From NCBI GenBank assembly GCA_022600195.1, contig JAHZKX010000062.1, forward strand, positions 62,001 through 126,000: 64,000 nucleotides of DNA, in the 5' to 3' direction. The DNA is from Planctomycetota bacterium (GTDB lineage: Bacteria; Planctomycetota; Planctomycetia; Planctomycetales; Planctomycetaceae). The translations under genes and the position numbers were made by a program. Under the pieces are notes generated by a model, which had not been told where the DNA came from, did not search any database, and saw nothing but the letters and a program-made list of their open reading frames with translations. Shown here piece by piece: positions 31,093-52,202 of the stretch (the first letter of the stretch is position 1; each line of letters begins with the position of its first letter).

Positions 31093-31479
31093 TCACCTCT
31101 AGGTTTTCTACTCTTTCTGCATTCCCCAATGTTCCAGCATGGATCCGCTCACCTTGCAAAACAGTGTTCGTGTGGACATTTCTTGCGCGGTTTTTCATCG
31201 CAAAATTCCGGGAATATTTTCTGAGATTTTTTGTAGAATCCTCAGCGGATCTTCCAGCAGTCCGCTCATGCAATTATTGCTATAAACCACTATTAAATAG
31301 AGGTTTATACCTCAGGGCCCTCTCCCGTTTCTGTGGACATCGATCGCAGGTTTTCTTCTCACCCTTACGATTAGCATATTTCGTCTCAACTTCTCAATGC
31401 GATTATTCCGAAAGATCAGAGTAACCGCTTGTATCAGGATAATCGGAAAAGTTTACCTTCCGAGCCTGACACAGACGGG

Positions 31480-31636: not shown

Positions 31637-34600
31637 ATGAACATATTACGTGTTAGCCTGGCCTGCTTAATCTTAGCATCTCAGTATTCACTGGCATCTG
31701 CCTATGCGGATCCAGATCAAACTGATGGCTCTCAGTCAGAGGGACGAGCAGCAATCGGCGAACGAGAGGGTTCTGCCATTGTAGGAAACGTCTCTTCCGG
31801 CATTTTCAGGCATGATTTCATTCCACAAAACAATGTGCAACGAAACGATGTTCCCGGTTTTACTTCAATGAAAGATGTCAGCTACCAGGATGTGCCGCAA
31901 GGTTACGTCCCCTATAAACAACCAGATCCACAAACAATGGTTGTGAACGAATACATCGATAACGGTGCCGGTGGTTTGCAACCACTGGGGCCACAGGCTT
32001 TCCAACCACTCTTCCGTCTGGATAAAGGCATTGGTGGGGGAATTGGTTATGACGATGGTTATTCCAATCTTGGAATCCTGCTGCCGTTTACCATTAACCC
32101 TGATCAAAGCATGCTCTTTCTGGACTTACGAGCAATGGTCACCGACCAGGGTGCCGGCGGTGTCAACCTGGGAGCGGGTTGGCGGGCCTATAGTGACGCA
32201 GTCGATAAAATCTTCACCTTCGCAGGCTGGTATGATTACGACGGCGGACATTTCCAGGACTATCATCAAATCGGTTTGAGTGGTGAAGTCATCGGCCAGT
32301 ATTTAACAGGTCGTATCAATGGTTACTTTGACATCAACAGCAATGAAGCTGTGGTTTCCAATAACCTCTCTGGTAATGCCTTCTACCAGACAAATCGAAT
32401 TGTACTCGATCGAGTCCTCCGTTCTGAATCTTCCTATGGTGGTGTGGATGCAGAAGTCGGCGGTCCACTGCCCGTACTCGGAAAATTTGGAATCGATGCC
32501 TTTGTCGGCGGTTACTATTATAATTCCGATTCGGACAAAAGCGCGACCGGTGTCAAGTTCCGTGCAGAAGCCAATATTAACGACTGGTGGCAGATGGGGG
32601 TCAGCTATGCGAAAGACTCCGTCTTCGGGTCCAACGCCTGGATGAATGTCACACTCAGCATTCCTGAAGGCAGATCTGATAAATGGATGCGACCCAAGAC
32701 GCTCAAGCAGCGTATGTATCAACCCATGAATCGTAACTACCGTATTGTCGCGAATATTAAAGAAACCACGAATACAGAACTCGCGATCAACCCCGATGAC
32801 GGCCTGCCTTACACTGTACAGCACATCGATCCCGACTTCGGGGGGGCCGGCAATGGTAACTTTGAAACACCATTCGGTTCTGTCGCCGCCTATAACGCGT
32901 CACCCCCTTCATCGGTTACAGATATCATCTTTGTCAAGGATGGTAACGCAGCGAATCTGGATGGACAGATCACACTGCTTGACAATGGTGGCGGTATGGG
33001 TAGCATCACCACCGGACAACGCCTGTTAAGTGAAGCCCGCCAGCATACTTTCAACACGTTTGACCAGGGGGGCGCACCGGTCACTCTGAACCTGCCCGGT
33101 TATAACCCCGCAGCCAGCATGCCAACTCTCAGCAACTCAGCGGGTGCTGGTGGATCACCGGGAGCCGTTGTTGTCGGTACCGGCGGTGCCTGGGAAGTGT
33201 CTGGTTTCAATATCAGCGGTGCCAGAACGGGAGGAGCACTCCCACATAACGATGGTATTTTCTCAGCGGCAACGCGCGGCTTTAACATCAACAACAATAC
33301 TTTTGTGTTGTATAACCGTGGTATTGATGTCACAAATCTGACCGCTGGCACCAGCACTGGCATCGTTTCAACCAACACCTTCTCGGGAGATGGGGCGAAC
33401 TCGCTGCATGGAGCACTCATCACACACAATGGTGGAACACTCGAACTGGCCTTCCACAATAACACGGCGACCAATAACCTTGGTGTCGTTCCACCGGGCA
33501 CTGGAACTGGTTTTGAAATCATTGCCAATGCTGGTTCCGTTAATGGTGTCGGCACAGCCACCGATGGTGTAACGACGCTCGGAATTACCGGAAATACGGC
33601 CAATGCAAACGGTACCGGTATGATTATTACCGCCAATGGTGGTGCAGTGATTACTACAGACAAGTCTAATAATACCTTCAATGCTAACATCAATCCCAAC
33701 ACAGGTTTGCATGTCAATGCGAACGGTGTAGGCAGTTCTGTGATCTTTCGCAGCTTTGATACGATTACCGCAACCGGCAACACGGGCATTGGTATCGCCT
33801 TTGATACGACAGGCGGCGGTTTGATTTCTGCCCTTTCAGAAGACCTGAACCAGGATGGAATCCTCGATCCGGGTGAAGACCTCAACGGGAACGGTGTACT
33901 CGACCTGGGGATGACCAACATCAACGCCAGCACCAATACCACAGATGGTTTTGTGGCAACATCAGACGGTGCCGGTGGCGCTTCACGAATCGACCTGAAT
34001 ATTGGAAATGCGAATTCAGCAGACAACCTGTTTAACAGCAACGGTCAGAATGGGATTAGCCTGGTTACGCTCAACGCAGGTACGATCCGTGGCAGTGTCA
34101 TCAACAATACGGCAACCGGAAATACACAGGACGGTTTTGCCAGTACTCTGACTACCGGAACCATTGATCTTTCTGTCTTAAATCCCGCAGGTGCCGCTTC
34201 CGTGGGAAGTAACATCTTCACTGGAAACACCCGCCATGGTATGAGTATTGTCAATAACACGGGTGGTGCCTTCACGACAGCCTTGATTTCCAATAATGAT
34301 TTCAGCAATAACACCGAAGCGGGCCTGTTCATCGGCGGGGATGCTCTGGGTGGGACAGATACAGCAGTCAATACACTGGGCACCCTCGATTCCAACAACT
34401 TCAATCGAGATACTTCGGGTACCGAAGGCATCCTGTTTAACAGTAGCGATGTCAGAACCACGGCAATCCTGACCAGAAACACCTTCGTAGGACGTACGGG
34501 TGCCGGTCGCGGTGTCGGTGGTGTTGTCGGTGGCACAACGACTGTGGTCGGTACTGGTGGGGTGCTCCTGACATTCGGCAGTCTGTCAGCAGTGGATAAT

Positions 34601-36496
34601 TCACTCGTCAACACCTTCATGAATAACGGTGATGCCCATATCGGCCTGGTGCTGGAAGGCAATACACTTAACGATGTAGACATCGACCAGCACGACTTTA
34701 ATACCACCCTCGATTCAACAAACACAGACTTTGATGGGCAAGGCGTCGGGTTCATCCTTCGGGATACCGCGATCATGGCGACTAGTACATTCCAACGCAA
34801 CACATTCCAGAACAATGCCGCCTCTGGTCTGTACTTCAGTGTGACTGGAAATAATGGAGCCGATTTTGCTCAACTCAATAATATTACCGTGGGTGGATCA
34901 ACGGCTCCCTTTGGAAATACCTTCACGGGCAACACGGGCAGTGGTCTGGAAGTCATTCGAACGGCCAACGGTCAAGTCAACACCTTTGATGTTCAGTTTA
35001 ATACCTTTACAGGCAACACACTGGACGGAATCAGCCTGACCGCAGCAAATGCGAACCTCACAGATACCTATACGATTAACGATAACACCATCACCGGGAA
35101 TACTGAGAATGGTATCGATATCAGTGTGCAGGCCGATGCGGTGCTGGATGCAGACATGGCACGTAACACGATTACCGGTAATACTCTGAGCGGTATCCGT
35201 ACCACGGAAATGATCAACGATGCGTCCGATCAACGCGGTGTATCAGGAAACTGGGTTGCCAACACGATCACCGGCAATGGAGCGGGTGGTATCGAGCTGG
35301 ATGCAGCCTCAAATGTATTGGTCATTGGTGGTGCGGGAGCAGATCGTAATATTATCCAGAGTAATACTGGGGACGGTGTAGCCATCACAGGAGCCGGGAC
35401 TGTCACCCTGAATAATAACCTGATTGCCAGCAACACCGGAGCCGGTATCGATATCGATGCACCTTCTGATAGCGATATCATAATCACCAATAACGATATT
35501 ACTCTGAATACGCTTGATGGTATCGAATATAGAAATGCAACTAGCGGGACATTCATTTTACTGGCAACTGGCAACACCATCGACTTCAACGATGGGCGTG
35601 GTTTCGATGTCCTGGCCCGACCGGGAGCAGCCACTGATTCAGCAATCGATATTACCTTTAGCAACAACGTCGTGAACGCCAACCTGCTGGAAGGGGTTTA
35701 TGTCGTCTACACCGCATCGAACAATCAGACGCAGGATGTGGCATCAACGACAGCACTGCTAGCCGATGGTGGTCTGTTCGACGATGTCCAACTCAGGATG
35801 ACTATGGATACGAACCAGATCCTGGCGAACGGGTTTAGTAGTGGATTCGGTACCACAGGTCTGGTGGTTCGTGTCGGTACAACCAATGGAAGTACCAGCA
35901 GTACAAACGCTGGTGGATTTGCCAGCGACGGTGTGGGCAACTTCACAAACTCCGGTGTGATTATGTCGGTGACCAATTCTACAATCACGGGCAACTTTGG
36001 ATCGGATGCCTTCTTCGAATCCTTCACTTCAACAGTGGATCCCGCGGCAACCGCGGGAACCTGGGGTGCTACCAACGACCCGACTGCACTCACAACGTTC
36101 CGCAGCGATCCATTGGCTCGACTGGACCTGGACTGGGGTAACAACACCATTATTGCGGGTGATGTCACCAACACGGGTGCCTTCTACAACAATGCAGACA
36201 CCTTCAAATCTCGTTTGAATACTACCAGTGTACCATTCGACGGACCATTTACTTCGACTTCAAGACGTCGTAATGCTCAACGTCAGGCTGCTCGTATCAA
36301 TAACCTGATAGACCCTGGTGCAGGAACCTTCCTCTACTCTGGTACAGGAGCAAGTACCTTCCGTCTTGACAGCACCGGCGATCTCTTAATCTTTACTCTT
36401 GACGGCAATCCTTACACGACAACCGGGGATGCCAATGGTATCAACTTCGGTGGAGCCATTACCGGCGAACTACCTTGGGGTTGGGGACAATTCTGA
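31637..36496 (+). CDS. Large surface protein: inverse-autotransporter-like beta-barrel followed by right-handed beta-helix passenger
   Basis: Signal peptide MNILRVSLACLILASQYSLASA. Barrel-like region GGGIGYDDGYSNLG...GGVNLGAGWRAYSD...FTFAGWYDYDGGHFQDYHQIGLSGEVIGQYLTGRINGYFDI...YGGVDAEVGGPLP...WWQMGVSYAKD. Then more than 1000 aa of NTxTGN-type rungs. GGAG RBS 6 nt before the ATG. Confidence 0.8.
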   Translation: MNILRVSLACLILASQYSLASAYADPDQTDGSQSEGRAAIGEREGSAIVGNVSSGIFRHDFIPQNNVQRNDVPGFTSMKDVSYQDVPQGYVPYKQPDPQTMVVNEYIDNGAGGLQPLGPQAFQPLFRLDKGIGGGIGYDDGYSNLGILLPFTINPDQSMLFLDLRAMVTDQGAGGVNLGAGWRAYSDAVDKIFTFAGWYDYDGGHFQDYHQIGLSGEVIGQYLTGRINGYFDINSNEAVVSNNLSGNAFYQTNRIVLDRVLRSESSYGGVDAEVGGPLPVLGKFGIDAFVGGYYYNSDSDKSATGVKFRAEANINDWWQMGVSYAKDSVFGSNAWMNVTLSIPEGRSDKWMRPKTLKQRMYQPMNRNYRIVANIKETTNTELAINPDDGLPYTVQHIDPDFGGAGNGNFETPFGSVAAYNASPPSSVTDIIFVKDGNAANLDGQITLLDNGGGMGSITTGQRLLSEARQHTFNTFDQGGAPVTLNLPGYNPAASMPTLSNSAGAGGSPGAVVVGTGGAWEVSGFNISGARTGGALPHNDGIFSAATRGFNINNNTFVLYNRGIDVTNLTAGTSTGIVSTNTFSGDGANSLHGALITHNGGTLELAFHNNTATNNLGVVPPGTGTGFEIIANAGSVNGVGTATDGVTTLGITGNTANANGTGMIITANGGAVITTDKSNNTFNANINPNTGLHVNANGVGSSVIFRSFDTITATGNTGIGIAFDTTGGGLISALSEDLNQDGILDPGEDLNGNGVLDLGMTNINASTNTTDGFVATSDGAGGASRIDLNIGNANSADNLFNSNGQNGISLVTLNAGTIRGSVINNTATGNTQDGFASTLTTGTIDLSVLNPAGAASVGSNIFTGNTRHGMSIVNNTGGAFTTALISNNDFSNNTEAGLFIGGDALGGTDTAVNTLGTLDSNNFNRDTSGTEGILFNSSDVRTTAILTRNTFVGRTGAGRGVGGVVGGTTTVVGTGGVLLTFGSLSAVDNSLVNTFMNNGDAHIGLVLEGNTLNDVDIDQHDFNTTLDSTNTDFDGQGVGFILRDTAIMATSTFQRNTFQNNAASGLYFSVTGNNGADFAQLNNITVGGSTAPFGNTFTGNTGSGLEVIRTANGQVNTFDVQFNTFTGNTLDGISLTAANANLTDTYTINDNTITGNTENGIDISVQADAVLDADMARNTITGNTLSGIRTTEMINDASDQRGVSGNWVANTITGNGAGGIELDAASNVLVIGGAGADRNIIQSNTGDGVAITGAGTVTLNNNLIASNTGAGIDIDAPSDSDIIITNNDITLNTLDGIEYRNATSGTFILLATGNTIDFNDGRGFDVLARPGAATDSAIDITFSNNVVNANLLEGVYVVYTASNNQTQDVASTTALLADGGLFDDVQLRMTMDTNQILANGFSSGFGTTGLVVRVGTTNGSTSSTNAGGFASDGVGNFTNSGVIMSVTNSTITGNFGSDAFFESFTSTVDPAATAGTWGATNDPTALTTFRSDPLARLDLDWGNNTIIAGDVTNTGAFYNNADTFKSRLNTTSVPFDGPFTSTSRRRNAQRQAARINNLIDPGAGTFLYSGTGASTFRLDSTGDLLIFTLDGNPYTTTGDANGINFGGAITGELPWGWGQF

Positions 36497-36536
36497 TCTG
36501 CAACAATGGGCCTGATTTGACGATCGGCTGAAACCA

Positions 36537-36574
36537 AAACACCATCCTGATTCACTTCAGGATGGTGTTTTTTT
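36537..36574 (+). terminator. Intrinsic terminator after the beta-helix surface protein gene
   Basis: aaaacaccatcctga-ttcact-tcaggatggtgttttttt. Confidence 0.9.
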
Positions 36575-45221: not shown

Positions 45222-48200
45222 ATGGCACAAACAGATATCATCATTACAGGTGCTCGCGAGCACAATCTGCAAAACATAAATGTTCAACTTCCTCGAAATC
45301 GACTGATTGTAATGACCGGAGTCAGTGGCTCCGGAAAAAGTTCGCTCGCTTTTGATACGCTGTATGCTGAAGGGCAACGACGCTATGTAGAATCGCTCTC
45401 CAGTTATGCGCGTCAATTTCTGGGGCAGATGCCCAAGCCGGAAGTGGATTCTATTTCTGGTCTCGCGCCTTCCATCTCCATCCAGCAGAAAATGAGTGGT
45501 CGGAATCCGCGCAGTACTGTGGGAACGATTACGGAAATTTATGATTATCTTCGGGTCCTGTTTGCCCGTGTGGGAATGGGGTCCTGCGAACAATGTGGCA
45601 AGCCGATCAGCTCACAAAACAGCGAGCGCATCATTGACTCGATTTCTCTGCTGCCAGAGAAAACCCGCTTTTCGATTTTGTCACCCTTAATTCAGCAGCA
45701 GAAAGGGGCATATAAAGATCTGTTTGACGATCTGTTGAAGCAGGGCTTTCTCAGAGCACGCGTTGATGGTCGTATCGTCCAGCTTTCCGATCAACTGCAG
45801 TTGGATCGACAGATGAGACACACGATTGAAGTCGTCGTTGATCGTCTTGTCGCAGGTAAAATCAGTCGTTCCCGCCTGGCAGAGTCTGTCGAACTGGCTC
45901 TGAAAATGTCAAAGGGCACGCTGATTGTCGCGGAAGAACTATCTGCTCAACATCCCGATAAAGAGGAGGCTGATAAAGAGAAGACCGACACGCTTCGGGA
46001 AAAACTTTATAGTTCAAACTATGCCTGTTCCGACTGTGGCATCAGTTATGAACCGCCGACACCGCAGCTCTTCAGTTTTAATAGCCCGCTTGGAATGTGC
46101 AATGAATGTAATGGCCTGGGCATGCGCTATGATTTTCCGATAGAGGCTTTGATTTCGAAAGATTCAGTTTCCATTCAAAAAGGCGCTTTCGAATTATTAG
46201 GGCCGTTATCAAAAGTCGGGAAATGGAGAAGGCACATCTACAATGGTGTCGCGCGTTCCATCGAAAAAGATTTAAAACTGCCCGCAGACAGTTTTATGAA
46301 AACTCCCTGGAATGAACTGCCCGCAGAAGCACAACAGCAGTTTCTCTATGGGACCGGTGAGCGAAATATTACTTTCAGTTGGCGTCATTCTGGTGGCGTC
46401 TGGAAGCATGGTGGTACCTGGGAAGGTTACGTCGAGGAACTTCTGGAGAGTTATCGTAAAACCAGTAACCCGATGCGACGGAAACAACTTGAGAAGTACA
46501 TGGACTTTGTCCAATGTTCCAGTTGTCATGGAGCACGACTGAATACACAGGCTCGCCATGTCCGGATTACTTCGAACAGTTTTCCCACTAAAGGCAGAAA
46601 GAAAGCCACCGCGAAAACCCTGCCTGAAGTTTGCGCATTCAGTATTGAAGAGGCGGCCACATTTTTTGAATCGCTGGAACTGGACGAAACCGGAGTACTG
46701 ATTGCAGACGAAGTCTTGAAAGAAATTCGTGGGCGCTTAGGTTTTCTCCTGCGTTGTGGTCTGAACTATCTGACCATCGACCGCACCGCTCCGACACTTT
46801 CCGGCGGTGAAAGTCAGCGGATTCGTCTGGCAGGCCAGATCGGCTGCGGACTGGTGGGCGTGGTTTACATTCTGGATGAACCCTCTATTGGATTGCATCC
46901 TCGCGATAATACGATGCTCCTGGAAAGCCTGTGTGACCTGCGCGATCAGGGCAATACTGTGATTGTGGTCGAACATGATGAAGAAACCATGCGCGCTGCC
47001 GATCATATTGTCGACTTTGGTCCCGGTCCCGGAATCCGCGGCGGACACATTGTCGCTGAAGGTTCATTTCAGAAAGTCCTGAAAGCAAAACAAAGTGTGA
47101 CGGCCCAGTTTCTTTCCGGAAAAGAAACGATCTCCATCCCGGAAGCCCGACGTCGACTGATTAAAAAAGAATCGATTACCATCAAAGGTGCGAAGCATCA
47201 TAACCTGAAAAATATTGATGCCATCATTCCCACCAAAGGTTTTATCTGTGTCACGGGCGTAAGTGGTTCTGGAAAGAGCTCACTCGTGAATGATATTCTC
47301 TGGCCCGTTTTAAATAAAAAGATTAATAAGGGAAAAGGAAATCCAGGCGAACATCTTAAAGTCACCGGACTGGAATTCATCGACAAAGCGATTGACATTG
47401 ATCAGTCTCCCATTGGTCGCACACCCCGTTCGAATCCCGCAACCTATGTCAAAGTCTTCGACTTGATTCGTGATCTCTATGCGAAACTTCCAGATTCCCG
47501 CATGCGAGGTTATAAAGCAGGCCGATTCAGTTTCAATGTAGCGGGTGGCCGCTGCGAAGCCTGTGAAGGACACGGTGCCAATAAACTGGAGATGGACTTT
47601 CTTGCGGATGTCTGGGTTCCCTGTCCCATTTGCGAAGGCCGCCGATTTCATCACGAAACACTCGAAATCCGCTATAAGGGAGCCAATATCGCCGAAGTCC
47701 TTGAGATGGATATTCAGCAGGCCATTGAACATTTTCAGAACGTTCCCAAAATCTTAAAACTCCTCGAATCACTACATAATGTCGGTCTGGATTATCTCAA
47801 GTTGGGTCAACCTTCGCCCACACTCTCAGGCGGCGAAGCACAACGCGTCAAACTCGCGCGGGAACTCGGCAAACGATCTACGGGAAGCACATTCTATCTC
47901 CTGGATGAACCGACGACCGGTTTGCACTTTGCCGATGTCAAGTTGCTGCTGAAAGTGTTACACCATCTGGTCGACGCCGGTAATACCGTACTTGTCGTCG
48001 AACATCATCTCGATGTTGTAAAAACAGCTGACTGGGTGATTGATCTCGGACCTGAGGGAGGCGAAGGGGGAGGCGAAATTCTGGTGGAAGGCACGCCGGA
48101 AGAAGTCGCCGCCTGTAAGCATTCTTATACCGGTCTGGCTTTAAGAGAGCAAACAGAACTGGTGCCTGCCAAAGCAGCAAAAGGCAGGAAAAAAACAAAG

Positions 48201-51200
48201 GCCTTAAAATTAACAAATCCGCATCTACGTTGGCAGTCCGCTCATCAAAAACAAAATGGCAAACCCAAAGGGGATAGCTCTCAAATTACCATTCGTGGAG
48301 CAGGGCAACACAATCTACAGAATCTGGATCTGCAAATTCCCCGCGATCAGATGAATGTATTCTGTGGCCCAAGCGGCAGTGGCAAGAGTTCATTGGCGAT
48401 GGATACGCTCTATGCAGAGGGGCAGCGTCGTTATGTGGAATCGTTGTCTGCCTACGCCAGACAATTTCTGGGTCAAATGCCCAAACCGAAATTCGAGCAC
48501 ATTCATGGCCTCTCTCCTGCAATTGCCATCGAACAGAAAACAACAGGCCATTCGCCTCGCTCCACCGTCGGCACGGTAACCGAAATTTACGATTATCTGC
48601 GTGTGCTGTTTGCACGACTGGGTACCATGTATTGCCCGGACTGTGATGTTCCGGTGGAAACGCAAACGACAGACGAAGTCATTCAGAGAATCCTGTCAAT
48701 CGAAGCGGGTACAAAACTTCTGATACTGGCTCCCGTCGAGATCAATGTCGGACAGGAATATGAGACACTCTGGGAGAAATTAAGAACGCAGGGTTTTCTG
48801 CGTGTACGAATCGATGGATTCACATGCCGTCTGGAAGATGTGCCCCAGATAGACCGCCGTCGTCGTCACGAAGTGGAAGTCGTCATTGATCGCATTACTG
48901 TCGCTGCCAAAAATCGTTCACGAATCGCAGATTCAGTCGAGTCTGCATTGGCGTTCGGGGAAGGGCTGATGTATGCCTGCTATTGTGATGATGAAATTCC
49001 GGAAAATGAATGGGATTTCGAAACGTTCAGCCTGTTTTATTTCTGCGAACAGTGTGGACTCAGCTTCGAAGAATTAACGCCGCACAATTATTCCTTTAAC
49101 AGCCCTTTGGGATGGTGCGAATATTGTGAAGGCCTGGGAACGGAACTGGGTACCAATCTGGCAGAATTGATTCCCGACCCGAATCGAAGTCTGAAAGAGG
49201 CTGCGATCGCAGCCTGGCCTGATCCGCGGACGAACCCGGAATTTCACCTGGTCCTGGCAGCCATCGCAAAACAATTTCGCATTCCACTGGATGTCCCCTT
49301 TAATCAACTCAGTGTCAAACAGCAGAGACTGGTTCTATACGGCGATGAAGAACGGTGGATTTCACTCGATGATTCGGGGAAAATTCAATTTCAATACAAA
49401 GGGCTTTATCCTGCCATTGAAGAAGCGTCGCGCCTTTCATTTGCATTTCGCAGCCGCCTGCAGGAAATGACCGGTGAAGTTCCCTGTTCGGTATGCAATG
49501 GCAGTAAGCTGCGCACCGATGCGGCAGCGGTTCGGTTTCAGGGAAAAACCATCAACCAGTTTTGTGAACTCCCCTTGAAAGATGCCTTGTCATTCATCAA
49601 AAAGGCAAAGCTTGACAAAAGGGAAAAACAGATCGCCGGCGAACTGATCAAGGAAGCGACCAGCCGCCTGCAGTTTCTGGTGGATGTCGGCCTGGAATAT
49701 CTTACCCTCGGTCGTGCATTGCCAACACTGTCCGGAGGGGAAAGTCAGCGAATTCGACTGGCTGGTCAAGTCGGACGCTCTTTAACGGGCGTACTCTACG
49801 TCCTGGATGAACCAACCATCGGCTTACATCCTCGCGATAATACGCGTTTGATCAATACTCTGAAAAAACTGAGGGACATCGGCAATACCATCGTGATGGT
49901 CGAACATGATCGTGAAGTACTCGAAGCTTCTGACTCGCTTTTTGATTTTGGTCCCGGAGCAGGACGGTTCGGCGGAACCATTGTAGGCAAGGGGACTCCC
50001 AAACAGTTAAAACGCAAAAAAAAATCGCTCACAGGGCAATATCTCTCCGATCAATTATCAATCCCGCTTCCTCAGGAACGCCGTCTCGTTTATGAAAAAA
50101 AGGGCCAGGAAGAAATTGCAGTCTCGCCCACAGGGCATTGGCTGGAATTAAAGGGGGCTCGACAAAATAATCTACAGTCAGTGGATCTCGCAATTCCACT
50201 TGGGTCCTTCACCTGTATCACTGGGGTCTCCGGTTCCGGTAAAAGTTCTCTGATAGAAGAAACACTGGCACGCGCCGTCACCAAAAAACTTCACCGTTCA
50301 AAAGAAGCTCCTGGCCCCTTTGATGAACTGCTGGGACTCGATCAGATTAATAAAGCCATCATTGTTGACCAGAAGCCCTTAGGAAATACACCTGCTTCAA
50401 ATCCAGCAACGTATACCGGCGTGTTTGATCAGATTAGAGAACTCTTTTCCAGGCTCCCCGATTCGAAAGTGCGCGGCTATCAACCGGGACGCTTCAGCTT
50501 TAATCGCTCGGGGGGACGCTGTGAAGACTGCGATGGAAACGGCCAGCGTTGTATCGAAATGCATTTTCTACCCGATGTCTGGGTCACCTGTGAAACTTGT
50601 AACGGCAAACGCTACAATCAGGAAACATTATCCGTCAAGTATAAAGGCAAATCCATCGCCGATGTTCTGGAGATGTCGATCGGCGACGTAGCGGAATTGT
50701 TTAAAAATATCCCCGCCATTCGTCGTACGATGGAAACCTTATGTGCCATTGGTCTGGATTATCTGACCTTGGGGCAATCTGCGCCTACTTTGTCAGGCGG
50801 GGAATCGCAGCGCGTTAAACTGGCGGCGGAACTGGCGCGACCCAGCACAGGAAAAACACTCTATCTGCTGGATGAACCGACAACAGGATTGCACTTTGAT
50901 GACATCGCCAAACTGTTGAAAGTTCTCAACAGTCTGGTCGAACTGGGAAACACGGTCATTGTGATTGAGCACAATCTGGATGTGATCAAAACAGCCGACT
51001 GGCTCGTTGATGTCGGACCCGAAGCAGGTAGTGAGGGCGGACAGATTATCGCCGCCGGTACGCCGGAAAAACTGGTGGAACATGCAGAACGCTTTCAGAA
51101 GCAGACCACTTCTACCCGTACTCGAAAATCAAAACAGGTTCCGTTGTTAAGATCTTACACCGGCGAAATATTGAAGTCGGTTCTCTCAACCGGAAAACGA

Positions 51201-52202
51201 GAGGAACGCGAACTCTTCGATGCACAAAGCCTGGGAAAAAAACAGGCGGGAGATATCGACCTGAAACAAATCGGTCGTGATGCGCAAATGCCATGGCAGA
51301 AAGATGGGAAACGCTGGCATACACAGGACCACGTTTCCATCTCTGGTGCCGCCTGCCAGTGGGAGGGAACAGCACTGGAATCCGTGATTGATGTGATCGA
51401 AAATCAAAAAGGATTTGGCGACATTAACTGGAATCATCGTAGCATTGTCGAAGTCAACGGGCCGGTTAAAAAACAGGGTTGGTTTTTACATGCAAATACC
51501 GGCGACGAGTGGCTGCTCAGACTCAGTTTTCGAGTGAAACGAAATACCTTTAAGCAGGATGAATTGCGCGAACAACTGGCACTGGAATCACTGGATAATC
51601 TGGATGAACTTCCCATTTATGGACGTTCCAACCGAGTCCGTGTCAAAAATCTGAAAGGCCCCTGGCAGGAAGTCACACTGACAGTACATTGGCAGAAAGA
51701 AATCGATACCCCTGCCTTCAAGAAATTTCTGCAAACGGCCTGTGATAAGTATCTCGCTCTGATTCATCAGGATAAAATCAATCCGGACGATATTATGCCC
51801 TGGAAAGTGCTCAAGAAGAAATGGCATCTTTCACGGAAAGGCTTTCCGAATCATAAACGCGTAGCCTGGGATGTTTCGCTGCTGGAATCGTTATTTGACT
51901 TACTGGAAAAGACTTATCCAGATTCATTGATCCAATGGGATAATAAATCCTTAGTCAATTTTATGAAATCAGGTGCCAGCAAACCGTTTCTGACGATTCA
52001 CACCAAACGACGGGAAGGAATCGATCTGACGTTTCAAGCGTCAAATGAAAAAATTACTTTAGGTAAAATAGCTGACCTTGGGGCCGAGCGCGAAATCAAA
52101 ACAGACGCCAAAGGCAAAGAGCAGGCACGAATTCGATTTACAAATAAAAAACAACTTCAGTTGAAATCATTCAAGCCTCTTTTGACAGTCATGGGTAAGT
52201 AA
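45222..52202 (+). CDS. uvrA: Tandem-fused excinuclease ABC subunit A (UvrA-UvrA) with extra C-terminal domain
   Basis: 2326 aa. Four Walker A sites ([76 protein letters not shown]); four LSGGE[SA]QR signatures; zinc-finger cysteines in both halves. Halves split near 48285. Confidence 0.96.
51288..52199 (+). other. Duplicated unrecognised domain at the UvrA C-terminus
   Basis: Two diverged copies: [16 protein letters not shown]...[32 protein letters not shown] (from 51288) and [17 protein letters not shown]...[32 protein letters not shown] (from 51795). Confidence 0.7.

Follow-up and report, generated by a model that had tools for sequence, protein, structure and literature searches.

The window analysed here, a 64,000-nucleotide stretch of genomic DNA, carries at 31637-36496 on the plus strand one open reading frame that translates into a protein of 1619 amino acids (aa). 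The mechanical reading frame starts at 31397; we chose the ATG at 31637 as the start codon, since a GGAG lies 6 bases 5′ of it, the signal peptide begins there and this start is kept in a relative (L014). The following features were distinguished in the gene and immediately downstream:

31637..31708, plus strand: Sec-type signal peptide MNILRVSLACLILASQYSLASAYA (aa 1-24), read by eye, with its start codon and h-region kept in L014
31709..32011, plus strand: N-terminal segment (aa 25-125), probably periplasmic, with no Pfam match and no LysM or other known domain
32012..32692, plus strand: inverse-autotransporter beta-barrel (aa 126-352), from PF11924, a PDB profile search and hhalign to YeeJ and YchO, with 12 strands by alignment
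Plus strand: barrel strands b1-b4, FRLDKGIGGGIGYDDG, YSNLGILLPFTI, SMLFLDLRAMVTDQ, GGVNLGAGWRAYS, read off alignments
Plus strand: barrel strands b5-b8, KIFTFAGWYDYDGG, YHQIGLSGEVIGQ, YLTGRINGYFDIN, YGGVDAEVGGPLPV, read off alignments
Plus strand: barrel strands b9-b12, GIDAFVGGYYYNSD, ATGVKFRAEANIND, WWQMGVSYAKDSV, NAWMNVTLSIPEG, read off alignments
32693..32770, plus strand: linker with RMYQPMNRNYRIVANIK (aa 353-378), aligned to RYDLVDRNNNIVLEY of E. coli inverse autotransporters
32789..32986, plus strand: beta-helix N-cap NPDDGLPYTVQHIDP..GGAGNGNFETPF..DIIFV (aa 385-450), the same motif following the barrel in many paralogues and relatives
32987..36076, plus strand: right-handed parallel beta-helix passenger (aa 451-1480), from PF13229, a motif count, AlphaFold of aa 1101-1480 and Foldseek
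33842..33910, plus strand: optional insert DLNQDGILDPGEDLNGNGVLDLG with one EF-type calcium-loop motif (aa 736-758), from the orthologue alignment
34943..36493, plus strand: conserved distal module (aa 1103-1619), the last beta-helix stretch plus the C-terminal cap, recurring in relatives
About 36077-36493, plus strand: C-terminal cap (RRRNAQR...STFRV...GELPWGWGQF), part of the distal module
36536..36571, plus strand: intrinsic terminator, a 15-pair stem with a T-run, the top of 9 sites in the region

Translation and Pfam bear out the reading frame, signal peptide and domain order given in an initial annotation of this DNA. Since the intrinsic terminator lies directly downstream, the gene probably ends its transcript alone. 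The surrounding genes encode TPR proteins and an aminotransferase, and no secretion genes are linked at the locus. Loci 81-82% identical to this one belong to Gimesia, and the host is Gimesia or a very near relative. Further along the window, at 45222-52202 on the plus strand, a 2326-aa protein contains two full UvrA domain sets and is a tandem UvrA fusion.

The N-terminal part of the protein had been likened to the barrel of intimin/invasin-type inverse autotransporters (IATs), with a comparison to Pfam IAT_beta (PF11924) proposed as a check. When this part was scanned alone, IAT_beta matched aa 143-368 (nt 32063-32740) with 29.4 bits, above the curated Pfam cut-off of 22.3 bits; the match is lost when the whole protein is scanned with Pfam and NCBIfam. 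A single-sequence PDB search with the barrel returned nothing. Using full genes from related genomes, we aligned 35 planctomycete barrels and ran the resulting profile against every PDB sequence. Only invasin (4E1T, 2.3e-14) and intimin (4E1S, 2e-10) were matched, and a third, weak stretch of the match spans the linker RYNLVDRNNNIVLE. Profile-profile alignment (hhalign) with YeeJ and YchO of E. coli K-12 gave 97.9-98.0% over 220-234 columns, from strand 1 through the linker, and an HMM made from planctomycete barrels only picks up E. coli YchO with 49.6 bits. Taken together, the Pfam score, the exclusive PDB match and the two routes to the E. coli proteins support the proposed kinship of the barrel. 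The motifs on which that proposal drew are real: strand 8 is YGGVDAEVGGPLP, the loop that precedes it contains NAFYQTNRIV, and WWQMGVSYAKD makes up strand 11.

As read from the alignments, the 12 strands correspond one to one, and in order, with those of intimin/invasin-type barrels, from which we infer that they would close into a 12-strand barrel; an AlphaFold model of the barrel from a three-sequence alignment, which is too shallow, reached a pLDDT of 27.6. Strand 12 is followed by the linker motif RYDxVxRNNxI (consensus across the family RM..V.R..I), and the linker is expected to thread the barrel pore. Barrel and linker are better conserved among orthologues than most of the rod. Judged by the sequence of these two elements, the window protein is a member of the type Ve family. 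Two other architectures were considered and rejected. A classical type Va autotransporter is discounted by the lack of a PF03797 match and by a C-terminus that is a beta-helix cap, and a two-partner IAT by the presence of barrel and passenger in a single open reading frame, both in the window gene and in 12 orthologues.

An even number of strands places both ends of the barrel in the periplasm, and export of the passenger is read from homology; the protein could thus combine an outer-membrane barrel with a beta-helix scaffold that stays periplasmic. However, the homology to intimin and invasin fixes both the periplasmic side of the N-terminus and a linker that threads the pore, and a long beta-helix free of cysteines, of which the mature chain (1579 residues) has none, is typical of exported passengers. 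We regard a periplasmic passenger as highly improbable.

The C-terminal part, about 1,200 aa, had been described as a right-handed beta-helix, and three lines of evidence agree with this. Pfam Beta_helix (PF13229) scores 46.2 bits in a scan of the whole protein. In aa 521-1480 we counted 14 copies of the motif N-x-[ILVFTM]-x-x-N..G[ILFVM], whereas 1000 shuffles gave 0.3 on average and never more than 3. AlphaFold, given two sequences, models aa 1101-1480 as a beta-helix (mean pLDDT 74.7, pTM 0.82) in which short strands recur approximately every 28 residues and the final 120 residues are of low confidence. The beta-helix fold is thus supported by a model for this part of the passenger. Strict hydrophobic periodicity is not significant in the window passenger, although it is significant in a paralogue (C37). 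A Foldseek search with the model retrieved beta-helix proteins, namely AlgE4, GH87, GH110, pectate lyases, tailspikes and, at rank 23, pertactin, with modest TM-scores of 0.3-0.4 and identities of 10-15%.

Since the top Foldseek matches are the mannuronan epimerase AlgE4 and the GH87 and GH110 enzymes, and planctomycetes break down sulfated and algal polysaccharides, the passenger might be an enzyme bound to the surface and acting on polysaccharides, as a lyase, epimerase or hydrolase, instead of an adhesin, with display by the barrel unchanged. The likeness at 10-15% identity is, however, one of common fold only, Pfam gives no passing match to an enzyme family, and aa 521-1400 hold almost no Lys, Trp or Tyr, which would still permit catalysis by Asp only. 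An enzymatic passenger is therefore unlikely.

The insert at aa 736-758 had been called EF-hand- or dockerin-like. It holds a single EF-type loop that is complete, DLNQDGILDPGE; its second half is degenerate, and EF-hand and dockerin models gave no Pfam match to the window protein. The insert is present in 10 of 13 orthologues and missing from the other three as a 17-residue indel. We therefore reject a dockerin, since the single complete loop is not duplicated, finds no Pfam match and varies as an indel among orthologues.

Both ends of the rod are shared more widely. The N-cap, with the consensus NPxxGxPYxxxHVDP..GGxGT.E.PF...DIIFV, lies right after the linker and is common to many family members whose passengers otherwise differ. 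The distal stretch of about 500 residues also forms the C-terminal end of IATs in other genera (L098, L099, L106), and the distal module recurs with 38% identity inside a 5835-aa reading frame that this genome also encodes and that lacks an IAT barrel (L135 12391-19900, G000:C49). Two IATs of related genera, L103 (3373 aa) and L106 (2935 aa), carry nidogen-like (NIDO) domains in the passenger between barrel and C-terminus, and L106 has a leishmanolysin-type M8 metalloprotease domain there as well. The recurrence of the distal module without a barrel and the additional domains of L103 and L106 indicate that barrel, rod and cap can be exchanged as modules. The 5835-aa protein itself begins with a QLEDRTLL-type planctomycete N-terminus and shows apparent Ig-like repeats after its beta-helix and cap module.

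A survey of paralogues, which the initial annotation had recommended, gave four IAT_beta loci in the whole genome, all at or above the cut-off, and the window barrel used as a query returned the identical four. Orthologues with 79-86% barrel identity were found in 13 of 17 other Gimesia genomes searched, the negatives being mostly incomplete assemblies, and the locus is syntenic in 12 of the 12 other Gimesia genomes checked. Across the phylum, Pfam IAT_beta detects the barrel in 28 of 392 genomes and a lineage profile in 65 of 394, among them every one of the 46 sampled genomes of the family (f1), with up to six matches each. Since the Pfam scan of the full protein misses the barrel and the two phylum counts differ in this way, automatic annotation probably under-reports planctomycete IATs. 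We counted domains in 28 representative planctomycete proteins, one of them a passenger-only fragment: Pfam recognised IAT_beta in 25 and Beta_helix in 22, and an Ig-like or lectin-like domain in none of the 28. In a tree, the window protein groups with large IATs of related genera, and a search of viral contigs found no relatives. The combination of barrel and beta-helix is a conserved architecture in this bacterial family.

Several loci have features of their own. A paralogue (L011 7968-10802, minus strand, G000:C70) has an in-frame TAG just past the barrel linker, which divides it into a 316-aa barrel frame and a 619-aa beta-helix frame; its counterparts in other Gimesia genomes are single frames of about 940-985 aa. 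The TAG may reflect a nonsense mutation of recent date, an error in sequencing or a gene that is split. One Gimesia genome (G227) holds a tandem of three IAT genes (L110 4779-13930, minus strand). Another locus (L010 9072-14413) encodes a 1321-aa paralogue followed, 68 bases on, by a gene for a BBP7 outer-membrane barrel, possibly in one operon.

The host has one Omp85 protein, BamA, in which at least four POTRA domains were detected. Pfam did not detect TamB in the host or in 40 other genomes of the family (41 in total), while the control was positive in E. coli and five others; a TamB too diverged for Pfam may be present. In E. coli, intimin and FdeC require the translocation and assembly module (TAM), with its TamB subunit (PMC8151025). 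The missing detection in the host of a factor for these proteins fits a barrel that is an anchor only, with a different machine, for example a type II system, exporting the passenger; PMC9245377 describes InvL, an invasin-like protein of Acinetobacter, as a substrate of type II secretion. Against such an arrangement, the linker motif found in the pore of intimin and invasin is retained, and the neighbours of the gene are the TPR and aminotransferase genes rather than secretion genes. We consider separate export quite improbable.

The window gene very probably encodes a type Ve protein in which a barrel inserted by BamA exports, from N- to C-terminus, a beta-helix rod that stays attached and serves most likely as a surface adhesin or spacer. 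In the type Ve mechanism as described, the chain passes through Sec, BamA inserts the barrel, a hairpin forms in the pore, export runs N-to-C and the passenger is kept attached (PMC3467248, PMC6555100, PMC8151025). By analogy, Sec would take the chain out of the cytoplasm and BamA would place the 12-strand barrel at its N-terminus in the outer membrane; as a hairpin, the linker would remain in the pore while the C-terminal chain is drawn out N-to-C. The pull would come from the beta-helix folding rung by rung, beginning with the N-cap at the membrane and proceeding outward: with this cap as the presumed first domain to fold there, the rod would grow away from the cell. The rod of about 1,200 residues, estimated at approximately 38 rungs and 18 nm, would remain attached with its conserved cap at the far end. 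The fold and length of the rod, the conserved synteny and the absence of catalytic domains of known type suggest that the genus carries it constitutively at the surface, as an adhesin or a spacer. Several observations count against this scheme: TamB is undetected in the 41 family genomes, folding-driven export was demonstrated for Ig-like passengers, a fold that this one does not have, and the low pLDDT of the barrel model, the modest Foldseek TM-scores and the low confidence of the final 120 modelled residues weigh against it as well.

More broadly, we lean slightly towards the view that the Planctomycetaceae evolved a large type Ve branch of their own, in which beta-helix rods replace Ig-like chains, BAM is needed but no TAM, the helix is built from the membrane outward (N-to-C, a mirror image of classical autotransporters) and the distal module passes between these proteins and giant surface proteins that lack the barrel. 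Little is understood of the planctomycete envelope and of planctomycete attachment, and the proteins described here offer the phylum a plausible and widespread surface-display system without a detectable TAM.

The occurrence of IATs in Planctomycetes is already known, as stated in PMC6770984, which cites Leo 2015 and Heinz 2016; what varies here is the beta-helix passenger. Passengers of type Ve are described as Ig-like or lectin-like (PMC6555100, PMC8151025), and in an earlier survey planctomycetes figure solely through Big-motif proteins that do not belong to the Int/Inv family (PMC3008723). In the literature compared, to which the text of the 2016 survey did not belong, we found neither the combination of an inverse autotransporter with a parallel beta-helix nor the beta-helix passenger, family-wide distribution or missing TamB of planctomycete IATs.

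In classical autotransporters a beta-helix folds starting at its C-terminus, and in inverse autotransporters Ig-like domains are exported starting at the N-terminus. An inverse autotransporter that naturally bears a beta-helix uncouples the fold of the passenger from the direction of export, and would allow vectorial folding, as the proposed source of the pull on the passenger, to be tested in reverse.

Collectively, our results place the window protein beside invasin and intimin (4E1T, 4E1S) in barrel sequence, strand order, the linker motif after strand 12 and the position of the barrel N-terminal to the passenger. Unlike these proteins, it carries a beta-helix instead of Ig-like plus lectin domains, has no LysM-type periplasmic domain, and has strongly diverged strands 8-12 and a longer loop between strands 7 and 8. 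YeeJ and YchO of E. coli match it in the barrel (97.9% over 220 columns, with YchO reached directly by the planctomycete HMM), but YeeJ differs in its Ig-type repeats, LysM domain and lectin cap (PMC6714894). With type Va autotransporters of the pertactin type the protein shares a long, cysteine-poor right-handed beta-helix passenger with a cap, and pertactin (1dab) is among the fold matches. Unlike in type Va, the barrel belongs to another family and lies at the opposite end, and the direction of folding is expected to be reversed.
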